A DNA stretch of 64,000 bases, taken from positions 1 to 64,000 of the forward strand of contig NZ_SSWX01000019.1 of NCBI RefSeq assembly GCF_004803635.1, in the 5' to 3' direction. Under the pieces are notes generated by a model, which saw only the letters and a list, made by a program, of their open reading frames with translations, was not told the origin of the DNA and did no database searches. How positions within the stretch are numbered: the stretch's first letter is position 1; every line of letters begins with the position of its first letter. The position numbers and the translations under genes are program-made. Positions 1,717-62,912 of this stretch are shown here, piece by piece. This stretch comes from Lampropedia aestuarii. GTDB lineage: Bacteria > Pseudomonadota > Gammaproteobacteria > Burkholderiales > Burkholderiaceae_C.

Positions 1717-1825
1717 TTAGAACTTTTTTACGATCTTTTCACAGTCGCGCAGTGCTCAAAAAAAGAGGCAGCGCCATGCCCTTTTTTGTACCTTGCGCGA
1801 CTGCGTCGAGACTTTGAACAGGTTC

Positions 1826-4228: not shown

Positions 4229-4570
4229 GCGCATTCCTTGATGTGATTGGCCCATTGCCACTCGCTTGTATTTGCAAAACCTTTGTTGCCAAAGACTTGC
4301 GCGATGCGGTGATTAGAGCGGGTTTGCGGTGTTTTGGCAGTCACGCAAGGCACAAAGCCAAACGGTGCAGCGCGCAGCTGCAACTGGTCTGGCCTATGCT
4401 CTCATGGCCCACATAAGAGGCCTTGCCGTCCAGCTCGATACCGCTTCCCCAGCAACGAGTTGTTTGCAGAGTTGCCCTAGAGCCAGTGGCCATGGCGCGA
4501 TTGTCGTGATGAACACGCCTGTGCGCAGTCGTCGCTGAGGGCGATTTTTGTCAGTCTGTCCAAACCATTA
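4229..4570. other. Intergenic gap without recognisable gene
   Basis: These 342 bp separate the racemase start from the symporter terminator. Short frames exist on both strands, but none shows a domain, coding-like composition or a ribosome site. The promoter of the racemase gene must lie here, but no clear -35/-10 pair was identified. Confidence 0.5.
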
Positions 4571-6080: not shown

Positions 6081-6185
6081 ACACCCATCTCCACAATTGA
6101 AAAAACGGGAAAGGTGTAGGCCGTGGCTCTGTTGCCTCGCGCCGAGGAAATCGGTGCGCATGGGCAATGCAAGCTGGGGCGCTCA

Positions 6186-6300
6186 TTCCTTCCCTTCGCC
6201 GGCATGATCCGGATCAGGTTCTAAGGGTCGTAGCCTACAGTTTTGCTGGCTGTTTTCTCAGCCCTGCGCCCATGTCAAGCATGGGCCAGGACACCCCTAG
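6186..6300 (-). promoter_or_regulatory. TPP (thiamine pyrophosphate) riboswitch, THI element
   Basis: On the minus strand the order of conserved THI-element blocks is complete: GGGGTGTCC, then GGGCTGAGA, then ACCCTTAGAACCTGATC and CGGATCATGCCGGCG, ending GAAGGGAA. The aptamer precedes the symporter gene by about 100 bp. That spacing leaves room for an expression platform acting on termination or on the ribosome site. TPP binding would be expected to switch the transporter off when thiamine is plentiful. Confidence 0.95.
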
Positions 6301-6400
6301 GAACGTTGGCAAGCGCCGCACCATGTTATGCAACGCTTTGGCCAAGCATTATAGAGAGCAATTGGCCAGGCACCTACTGGCCACAGCGCGCGCTAACTGC

Positions 6401-15786: not shown

Positions 15787-15824
15787 AAGAACCTGTTCAT
15801 CATCCCCACGCAGTCGCGCAAGGA
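15787..15824 (+). repeat. Dispersed repeat, left-end fragment
   Basis: A single left terminus of the dispersed family: AAGAACCTGTTCATCATCC, then CACGCAGTCGCGCAAGG. It matches the end at 31740 over about 25 bp and the CAGTCGCGCAAGG block of the 22 kb and 62 kb copies. No matching right end was found, so this is a truncated copy. It lies 30 bp beyond the stop codon of the ABC permease gene. Confidence 0.7.
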
Positions 15825-15853
15825 GCAAACAAGGAACTAAACAGCGGGTGCAC

Positions 15854-17645: not shown

Positions 17646-17703
17646 TTAGAGCCTGTTTGCGGTCTGTTTGCGGTCTGCAAAAGAAACCCCAAACACGCTC
17701 TTA
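17646..17703. repeat. Dispersed repeat, 58-bp minimal copy
   Basis: Both family ends with almost nothing between them: TTAGAGCCTGTTTGCGGTC at the left and, read from the right on the minus strand, TAAGAGCGTGTTTGGGG. An internal GTTTGCGGTCT unit is duplicated. The element lies in the 186-bp gap between the binding-protein and permease genes of one transport operon. Its hairpin would form in their shared mRNA. Confidence 0.75.
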
Positions 17704-22026: not shown

Positions 22027-22297
22027 TAAGAACGTATTTACGATCTTTTTGCAGTCGCGCAAGGCACCAAAAAGTGGCAGTGCAAGGCGCCTGTTGCCGC
22101 TCATACGTCTGTATGAGCAAAACGGGCAACGCCGCAATGCGCTTTTTTTGCGCCTTGCCCTTCGGGTTGGAGTCCAAAAGGCACGCAGTTTTGTTAAAAA
22201 TCCTCGCCGGGCAGCGAGCCCGACTGCGGTTTTTGCCGCGCATCGTATCCTTTTGGGCTCCAACGCGGTCTGTAAAAAGATCGGAAACACGTTCTAA
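22027..22297 (+). repeat. Dispersed inverted-repeat element, full-length 271-bp copy
   Basis: The reference copy of the family. The left end is TAAGAACGTATTTACGATC and the right end, read on the minus strand, is CTTAGAACGTGTTTCCGATC, giving imperfect terminal repeats of about 25 bp. Module 1 (to about 22175) pairs AAGGCACCAAAAAG with CTTTTTTTGCGCCTT and carries an inner hairpin, GCTCATAC-GTCT-GTATGAGC. Module 2 (about 22176-22265) pairs TTGGAGTCCAAAAGG with CCTTTTGGGCTCCAA. There is no protein of transposase type inside. It lies in the 609-bp gap between the gltS start and a lipoprotein gene. Confidence 0.85.
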
Positions 22298-22910: not shown

Positions 22911-23029
22911 GCCGCTGTGGCTTGAATCATTGGACGCTTATTTGTAAAGCACAACGGCTGTGCGCATTGGCCAATCCAACAGAAAACCAAAACATATAGA
23001 TGCATATGGCATTCCGTGCGCGCTGCCTG

Positions 23030-23135
23030 GTTGGAGATTCTCGCCGGGCAGGTAGCCCAACTGCGGTTTTGCCGCGCATGGCATCCTTTTGGTCTTCAAC
23101 GCGGTTTGCGACAAGATCGTAAACAGGTTTTTTTA
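23030..23135 (+). repeat. Dispersed repeat, right-half copy
   Basis: Corresponds to module 2 and the right end of the full-length element: TTCTCGCCGGGCAGGTAGCC, ACTGCGGTTTTGCCGCGCAT, CCTTTTGGTCTTCAACGCGG, then AAGATCGTAAACAGG. Module 1 and the left end are missing. Its last bases are the TAA stop codon of dtd, read on the minus strand. Confidence 0.8.
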
Positions 23136-29892: not shown

Positions 29893-30076
29893 TAAGAACG
29901 TGTTTACGATCTTTTTACAGAACGCGTTGAAGCCCAAAAGGAGCTGCAAGGTACAAAAAAGCGCATTGCGGCGTTGCCCGTTGTGCTCATAGACACGTTT
30001 GAGCGGCAACAGGCGCCTTGCACTGCCTCTTTTTTGTGCCTTGCGCGACTGCAAAAAATTCGTAAACACGTTCTAA
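29893..30076 (-). repeat. Dispersed inverted-repeat element, 184-bp copy
   Basis: A copy in reverse orientation with the best-preserved ends: TAAGAACGTGTTTACGATC at the left, and TTAGAACGTGTTTACGA when the right end is read on the minus strand. Compared with the 271-bp copy it keeps module 1 in full and the right arm of module 2, but lacks an internal block of about 87 bp. It lies between the esterase start and the PLP enzyme gene. Confidence 0.85.
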
Positions 30077-30250
30077 CTGGGTATTTGGCTGGCGGCACTG
30101 TTGCATGCAGCGCGCTGCAATGTGCGCAAAAACACATTCTAGGCATATTCAACCGCCATCATGGTGTAGATAATGCCCCAGCACAGTAGCTTGCACTATT
30201 TTGACTCTTGCATGCGCTTTCACTTTTGCATGCGCGCCCTATTCTTATCC

Positions 30251-31378
30251 ATGCGATTTATGCCACACAGCCCCTTTGAAACTGCATCGACCTCCAATCC
30301 AGCTCTGCACACCCACACAGAAACCACCAGCTGGCTGCATGAAGCGCTACGCCGCATTGAAGCAGACTACCAGCGCAGTGCCGATACGCATTTGATTCCA
30401 CTGCCTGCGCCCGCCTTGTCCAAACTGGGGATCGATTTGTACCTCAAGGACGAGTCGACCCATCCGACTGGCAGTTTGAAGCACCGCCTGGCCAGATCCC
30501 TGTTTTTGTATGCGCTGTGCAATGGCTGGATTGGCGCAGGCTCTACGATTGTTGAGTCCTCTAGCGGCTCAACAGCCGTCAGCGAAGCGTATTTTGCCCG
30601 CCTGTTGGGCCTGCCTTTTGTCGCAGTAATGCCGCGCAGCACATCGGCAGAGAAGGTGCAGCTGATCGAGTTTTATGGTGGCAGATGCCACTTTGTCGAG
30701 CGCGCCTGCGAGGTGTATGAAGCAGCCCGCCAGATTGCTGAGGACACCGGTGGCCATTACATGGACCAGTTCACCTACGCCGAGCGGGCCACCGACTGGC
30801 GAGGCAATAACAATATTGCCCAAAGCATGTTCGTGCAAATGCAGCATGAGCGCGCCCCCATTCCCAGCTGGATTGTGGTGGGCGCGGGCACCGGCGGCAC
30901 CAGCGCGACAATTGGGCGTTTTGTGCGCTACCAGCAATACACTAGCCAGTTGTGCGTGGCTGATCCGCAGGGTTCGGTGTTCAGTGCCTACCACCGCAGT
31001 GGCGATGCCAGCCTGACCACCAGCGGCTCGCGCATCGAAGGCATTGGCCGCCCACGCCCCGAGCCCAGTTTTATCCGCCAACTGATTGACCGCATTGAAG
31101 ATGTCGCCGATATCGAATCAGTTGCCGCGATGCAAGCTCTCTCCACAGTGCTGGGCAGAAAAGTAGGCCCATCCACTGGCACCAACTTTGTCGCGATGTT
31201 GCGCTTGGCGCAAGAAATGCAGGCAGCAGGCCAAAGCGGCTCCATCCTGTCTTTGTTGTGTGACTCCGGTGAGCGCTATCCACACACCTACTTCAATCCG
31301 CAATGGCTGCAAGACCAGCTCGGCATTGATTTGAGCGCTTGTGCGCAGCTGCAACAGCACTATCTGTCTTTGTTGTAA
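30251..31378 (+). CDS. PLP-dependent cysteine synthase-family enzyme
   Basis: A 375-residue fold-type II PLP enzyme. The PLP-binding lysine is in HPTGSLKHR (K77), followed by the phosphate- and substrate-binding [11 protein letters not shown] and the glycine loop [14 protein letters not shown] near 220. Sequence features are nearer to L-cysteine desulfhydrase-type proteins (Cds1-like) than to CysK, but substrate cannot be fixed. The start is uncertain: ATGs exist at 30173, 30212, 30251 and 30260 with no clear ribosome site. The TAA stop merges with a dispersed repeat terminus. Confidence 0.8.
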
Positions 31379-31396
31379 GAGCCTGTTTACGATCAG
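31376..31396 (+). repeat. Dispersed repeat terminus at a stop codon
   Basis: The sequence from the TAA stop codon of the PLP enzyme, TAAGAGCCTGTTTACGATC, is a family terminus. The 463-bp gap up to the alcohol dehydrogenase gene has no recognised gene. A matching opposite end may be the one at 31801-31816, in which case the element would be about 440 bp and mostly of unrelated sequence. Confidence 0.65.
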
Positions 31397-31716
31397 CAAA
31401 CCCGTCTCAGGCATGCTTGCCACAGCAGTGGGAGATCCGCTATCGCGTTTGCACGCTCTGCCAAGCCCTCGTTGCTTGAATGCGTGCGGCCTCAGAATGG
31501 ATCGCAAGGCGTCTTTTGACAACCGTCGCCGACGCCAGGAACAACACAAGGACCGCCGCAGCGGATCGCCTGAGAGCCTGCGCGCAAGCCTCCACACGGA
31601 TTTTTGCAAAGCATCCGTAGTTGTCACCTATGGGAAAAGGATGCTGCTGTTTTGGCCTATTATGGCTGCGCAGTTCGCATGAAAGATCCGCTCTGAGGTG
31701 CCATGCAAGAGCTATC

Positions 31717-31816
31717 TAAGAGCCTGTGGCAGACTCTACGAACCTGTTCATCATCCCCACGCAGCCGCGTTGAAGCCCCAAAGGATGCAATGCGCGGAGA
31801 TTATGAACCGGCTCTG
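31717..31816. repeat. Dispersed repeat, compound remnant
   Basis: Two family ends in succession: TAAGAGCCTGTGGCAGACTC at 31717, then GAACCTGTTCATCATCCCC from 31740. The latter runs into CGCAGCCGCGTTGAAGCCCC and an inverted end, GATTATGAACCGGCTC, at 31799-31814. It ends 25 bp upstream of the iron alcohol dehydrogenase start codon, so it occupies the promoter/leader region of that gene. Confidence 0.65.
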
Positions 31817-31841
31817 AAAACAACAATCCAGGAGACCACCC

Positions 31842-33005: not shown

Positions 33006-33017
33006 GAGCCTGTTGAA
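33003..33017 (+). repeat. Dispersed repeat terminus at a stop codon
   Basis: The stop codon of the alcohol dehydrogenase gene begins TAAGAGCCTGTTGAA, the common terminus of the family. Beyond this the similarity fades within about 15 bp, so only the end is preserved or the copy has decayed. Confidence 0.55.
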
Positions 33018-33157
33018 AGGCGTCGCACCACAGCTGATCGGATCTTGCTCAGCAATGGAGATGCAATGGATTGAGGCCGCACAAGTGCTTTTTTGCAACC
33101 AAAGCACTATCTGGCTCCTACAATCACAGCATCTCATCTCCAGATTGCCCCCGACAC

Positions 33158-62640: not shown

Positions 62641-62912
62641 TAAGAGCCTGTTCAAACTCTCGATGCAGTCGCGCAAGGCACAAAAAAAGAGGCAATACAA
62701 GACGCCTGTTGCAGCGCATACGCCTGTATGAGCACAACGGGCAACACAGCCATGCGCTTTGTTGTGCCTTGCCCTTCGGGTTGGAGCCCAAAAGGCACGC
62801 TGCCTTGTTAAAAATCCTCGCCGGACAGATAGCCCGACTGCGGTTTTTGCCGCGCATCGTATCCTTTTGGGCTCCAACGCGGTCTGCGTGGAAACTTTGA
62901 GCAGACTCTAAG
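62641..62912 (+). repeat. Dispersed inverted-repeat element, 272-bp copy
   Basis: A second full-length copy with both hairpin modules. Ends are of the second subtype: TAAGAGCCTGTTCAAACTC at the left and, read on the minus strand, CTTAGAGTCTGCTCAAAG at the right. The interior is strikingly similar to the 22 kb copy, including CTTCGGGTTGGAGCCCAAAAG, which contains the arm TTGGAGCCCAAAAGG, and GCCGCGCATCGTATCC. Confidence 0.85.

Follow-up and report, generated by a model that had tools for sequence, protein, structure and literature searches.

Short repeats dispersed through a 64-kb stretch of the Lampropedia aestuarii genome (the window) probably represent a foldback MITE family that would be moved in trans by an IS5-family transposase. 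The family carries a two-module interior between many different ends, its arms would be kept alike by template switching, and its insertion at TNA can restore a stop codon. That the repeats are real non-autonomous transposable elements, as a sequence-only reading of the window had proposed, is supported by target duplications and empty sites, by lineage-specific insertions, and by an insertion sequence (IS) whose ends match.

Full, deleted and fragmentary copies are all present in the window (Table 1), and a 19-bp end motif with up to two mismatches occurred at 14 sites, against 0-1 in five simulated windows. Among the copies listed by the sequence-only reading, those at 1717, 17646, 22027, 29893 and 62641 are elements, and those at 23030, 15787, 31376 and 33003 proved to be fragments; a further fragment at 4316-4356 had been missed. 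The lengths it gave include the duplicated TNA. Its two types of terminal repeat were borne out, the same type standing at both ends of every full copy examined. As it had also stated, the element has no coding capacity: the listed open reading frames overlap and run through it, and none is confined to it. The window further contains, at 31376-31817, a 440-bp stretch between terminal-repeat-like sequences in opposite orientation that lacks the modules over most of its length and may be another element type. A TPP riboswitch (6174-6308, minus strand) is the sole Rfam match in the window.

Table 1. Copies of the element and their parts in the window.
Feature	Coordinates	Strand	Remarks
Left target duplication TAA	22027..22029	none	flanks full copy 22030-22294
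Full-length element, type A ends, 265 bp	22030..22294	+	target duplication TAA/TAA
P0 left arm, ~30 nt: terminal repeat with inner stem	22030..22059	+	
P1, 99-nt hairpin module, inverted	22060..22158	-	limits inferred by offset from homologues
P2, 99-nt hairpin module	22166..22264	+	
P0 right arm: terminal repeat with inner stem	22265..22294	+	
Right target duplication TAA	22295..22297	none	
Full-length element, type B ends, 265 bp	62644..62908	+	target duplication TAA/TAA at 62641-62643 and 62909-62911
Internally deleted element, 178 bp, type A ends	29896..30073	-	most of P2 missing; target duplication TAA/TAA
Internally deleted hybrid, 106 bp	1720..1825	+	type A on the left, type B on the right; target duplication TTA/TTA
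Minimal element, 52 bp	17649..17700	+	two ends only; target duplication TTA/TTA
Short element, 75 bp	31740..31814	+	GAACCTGTTCATCATC-type ends
Truncated copy	about 23018..23130	+	one module (P2) and right end; degraded orthologue in relative G002
Solo left end fragment	15789..15834	+	
Solo left end fragment	4316..4356	+	missing from the earlier list
Terminal repeat alone	31379..31394	+	directly after stop codon TAA 31376-31378 of ORF 30173-31378
Weak terminal repeat alone, 2 mismatches	33006..33021	+	after stop codon 33003-33005

The whole assembly (4.17 Mb, 75 contigs) contains many more copies. With a 277-base query, 40 scored candidates yielded 56 matches. The terminal motif GARCSTGTTYAMRRTC occurs 180 times without mismatch, and the second hairpin's core 87 times with up to three mismatches; the reversed controls of both motifs gave zero. 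The copy number of the genome is thus at least 87, counted as core matches, of which 45 copies were read in sequence. Most full copies are 264-268 bp long. On contig C24 of L. hyalina, two copies (L101 and L102), one with an assembly gap at its left end, have the same right flank, which suggests a duplication taking in the element.

The element is a foldback, with an outer stem of ~30 bp (P0, made of the terminal repeat and an inner part) enclosing two hairpins, P1 and P2, that lie head-to-head ~7 bp apart. A covariance model of P2 (99 positions) matches P1 over its full length on the opposite strand, which makes P1 an inverted copy of P2. This match exceeds palindromic symmetry, because P1 outscored the same P2 read backwards in 17/17 elements listing both. 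At least two Watson-Crick pair types were seen at 31 of the 43 P1 pairs, 23 of 41 in P2 and 25 of 30 in P0. The sequences of loops and bulges, GCGTTGCAAATCCTCGCCGGG...GCGCCTTGC for example, are conserved, and such internal loops need constraint beyond arm homogenisation.

Evidence for mobility came from the target sites. TNA flanks both sides of 74 of 93 copies from several genera, with an identical middle base in 62/74 (33% expected, P=2.7e-19), and the wider insertion target is C-TNA-G; what had been described as TA-rich TAA or TTA flanks are these 3-bp duplications. Comparison of occupied with empty sites, which the sequence-only reading had proposed, also supported mobility: the site of a copy in Acidovorax sp. 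GW101-3H11 (L145) is uninterrupted in five congeners, and that of L114 is continuous in seven. At a further site, that of L142, the flanks are highly diverged between relatives. Copies at shared orthologous positions in distant relatives had been named as an observation that would leave mobility unsupported. The closest syntenic relative (G002) gave a mixed outcome. It retains a degraded orthologue of the copy at 23030, which reads as an old insertion, while the sites of 22027, 31376 and 33003 are without the element there, the terminal repeat that follows the stop codon at 31376-31378 being absent from the corresponding gene end. Insertions of different age thus coexist.

A search for an IS with ends matching the terminal repeats located IS5-type elements in congeners, Aromatoleum and Nitrosomonas. 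Both end types of the element, GAACGTGTTTACGATC and GAGCCTGTTCAAAGTC, match the ends of such elements of about 845 bp, which make the same TNA duplications. Those of the congeners have one DUF4096 frame and one DDE frame, their proteins belong to NF033580 (IS5 family) with PF13340 and PF01609 matches, and their ends read TNA-GAACCTGTTCAAAGTCT and TNA-GARCCTGTTCACGATCTTTT. Two further NF033580 members with the 3-bp TNA duplication share the ends of the element, namely one on plasmid 2 of Aromatoleum aromaticum EbN1 with B-type ends (TTA-GAACCTGTTCAAAGTCTC...-TTA) and another, from Nitrosomonas stercoris and carrying the annotation ISStma16, with A-type ends (TTA-GAGCCCGTTTACGATCT...-TTA). Up to 20/20 terminal bases are in common. 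The element differs from these IS in having no transposase, and its hairpin interior is unrelated to theirs; of the weak matches between IS and element, 343/351 touch a terminus. Matching IS ends were found for the GA[AG]C end types; for GGGCC ends, the search in Variovorax YR216 gave five end matches, none paired at IS spacing. The L. aestuarii genome itself has an 841-bp relative of the IS with B-type ends, 78% identical to the L. cohaerens IS and apparently degraded; it is nested in a second, related copy of the same IS (L042/L257, about 130.3-132.1 kb of contig C74). The draft assembly yielded no intact partner transposase. The transposase, left unidentified by the sequence-only reading, is judging by the shared ends and the 3-bp TNA duplication probably an IS5-family enzyme of the TNA-target type, which, supplied in trans, would mobilise the element.

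Across the family, the element matched 150 of 301 genomes (89/141 genera). The P2 model, roughly calibrated and applied at E 1e-4 or better, picked up the module in 83 of the 300 genomes sampled from the order, as well as in some other Pseudomonadota, where it usually lies in an element of 260-280 bp. No copy was found in plasmid and phage collections. Its terminal repeats in these genomes, some 17-31 bp long, are of at least ten different kinds, among them GGGCCTGTTMACAC (with CTAG-like flanks), CTAGGGGGCGTTCTCAATTAG, GGAGCCTGTCGGACTTAA, GTGTCCTGAGTTAGAAGTTCG, GTGTCCTATCCCGTA, GGGCTCGTTAATGAATAAC, GAGCCTATTTCAGTAGG, AGGGTCCGTGCTCGATACC, AGGGGTCTGATGACGTTTTG and GGGTCTGTTGACAATC; L224, L235 and L226 (cut by the stretch end), which show no clear terminal repeat, should be left out of this count. 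Two-module copies measure about 253-280 bp and shorter ones 160-195 bp. Head-to-tail arrays of ~165-bp elements were seen at two loci (G006:C16:242226-242936, L158; G007:C6:527027-527424, L159), each unit having one hairpin module, ends GAGCTTGGTCAAGGC and single-base joints.

Left and right end types agreed in 45/45 copies examined in the L. aestuarii genome, a count that includes one copy (L239) that has lost its outer bases and has both ends alike. On a tree of the interiors, end type has to change at least 8 times, and strongly supported branches force 2 of these changes. One copy (L238, about 268.9 kb on contig C23) bears a third end type, GAGCCTGTTCACTCACTTCACGC, nearly perfectly mirrored, on an A-clade interior. 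Single-base end variants were mirrored more often than expected (5 vs 1.1 expected, p=0.0004; 6 vs 0.6, p=0.012), with similar figures outside this genome. Template switching between inverted-repeat arms is an established mutational process that homogenises arms (PMC8604942). Such switching during replication, here across a 220-bp structured spacer, would keep the arms of P0, P1 and P2 alike and mirror mutations at both ends. Through it, a lineage could also exchange its two ends at once and thereby come to follow a different transposase.

These patterns bear on two other accounts of the element. An ordinary type I MITE, derived from a single IS by internal deletion and with hairpins that mean nothing, would explain why the terminal repeats and target duplications are identical to those of the congeners' IS5-type elements; an interior without similarity to the IS, the same module between many unrelated terminal repeats and an element length kept phylum-wide make this account improbable. 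Homologous recombination that replaced interiors between elements is unlikely as the general source of the differing end types, and it is nonetheless a serious rival to arm-to-arm copying for switches between the common ones. The end types are intermixed on the interior tree, copies that are 90-95% identical make good recombination substrates, and the copy at 1720-1825 has hybrid ends. Recombination alone, however, does not make the two ends of a copy alike, and the rare mirrored single-base variants and the unique mirrored end of L238 lack a visible donor.

Two further accounts, one of 3'-end terminators or mRNA stabilisers kept by the host and one of functional RNAs, were weighed against insertion sites and pairing. 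With ORFs of 120 codons or more called mechanically and the expectation taken from available sites, the duplicated TNA was an exact stop codon in 33 of 61 copies outside the L. aestuarii genome (about 20% expected, P=4e-9), so that about half of those insertions put a hairpin directly after a stop codon. This would fit elements kept as terminators or stabilisers, an explanation we regard as very unlikely: in any TNA one of the two strands reads as a stop codon, which the duplication restores, the copies are lineage-specific, and within the L. aestuarii genome itself there was no excess (5/31 vs 12% expected, p=0.29). Because the duplication restores the stop codon, such an insertion should be nearly harmless and would persist; the excess may arise by target choice or by survival. 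It is likewise very unlikely that the repeats are structured non-coding RNA genes or cis-regulatory RNAs that merely happen to be repeated, their hairpins selected as RNA. The strong fold (z -8 to -18), the plentiful compensatory changes and the conserved internal loops would suit such genes. RNA selection on one strand predicts more G-U pairs than A-C mismatches on that strand, and a mild excess was seen in P1 (122 vs 79) and inner P0 (40 vs 26). Outer P0 (24 vs 27) and P2 (77 vs 84) had none, and fold energies were equal on the forward and reverse strands (p=0.23); one-strand RNA selection is thus not supported. Rfam 15 gave no credible match to the element at gathering or permissive thresholds, and target duplications and empty sites show transposition. 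Since the compensatory change lacks a consistent strand bias, it argues for homogenisation of DNA arms rather than RNA, and the pairing is best understood as belonging chiefly to the DNA palindrome.

Being short and non-coding, with terminal inverted repeats, a TNA target duplication and IS-matching ends, the element can be classed as a MITE with IS5-family ends. It is set apart from an ordinary MITE by the IS-unrelated two-module interior, its order- to phylum-wide spread in at least ten ends, and ends that switch concordantly. Correia/NEMIS elements of Neisseria duplicate TA. The element resembles them in being short, intergenic and present in many copies, with terminal repeats and long hairpins; the parallel drawn by the sequence-only reading was judged on this general design, where it holds, and ends at the 3-bp TNA duplication, the length of about 265 bp and the paired 99-nt modules. 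ERIC and YPAL are not known to exchange their ends between IS types. These enterobacterial elements (ERIC, RU-1; YPAL, RU-2) are likewise palindromic MITEs with stable stem loops, but they belong to another lineage and make TA duplications, not TNA (PMC2759123). REP/REPIN sequences, associated with RAYT transposases, are also conserved palindromes with many copies per genome, REPs being 20-40 bp (PMC3733652); unlike them, the element has terminal repeats and target duplications of the cut-and-paste type. A MITE reported in Polaromonas sp. JS666 (Mattes et al. 2008, as cited in PMC10969869) comes from the same bacterial family and might be a member of the element family. That paper aside, no published description of a family-wide end-exchanging element of Comamonadaceae/Burkholderiales was found in the open-access literature.

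A MITE usually takes its name from the single IS it derives from and is expected to die out with it. Here, a single interior has kept its sequence, structure and length all the way from Lampropedia to other orders and classes of Pseudomonadota, and at least ten terminal repeats are found around it. It is possible, if short of probable, that the element belongs to a phylum-wide class of hyperparasitic DNA elements that is defined by its paired 99-nt foldback modules and not by its ends. Through concerted end exchange by arm homogenisation, such a class would live off whichever IS-type transposase the host contains, and the module would be needed for propagation, for example as a recognition site for a host factor or for single-stranded DNA. 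If both ends can be rewritten together, a MITE lineage is able to outlast its transposase, and palindromic repeats that have been described separately could be one lineage. The family also offers a natural record, open to counting, of copying between the arms of palindromes, and it clearly illustrates how a target sequence can make insertion at stop codons harmless.
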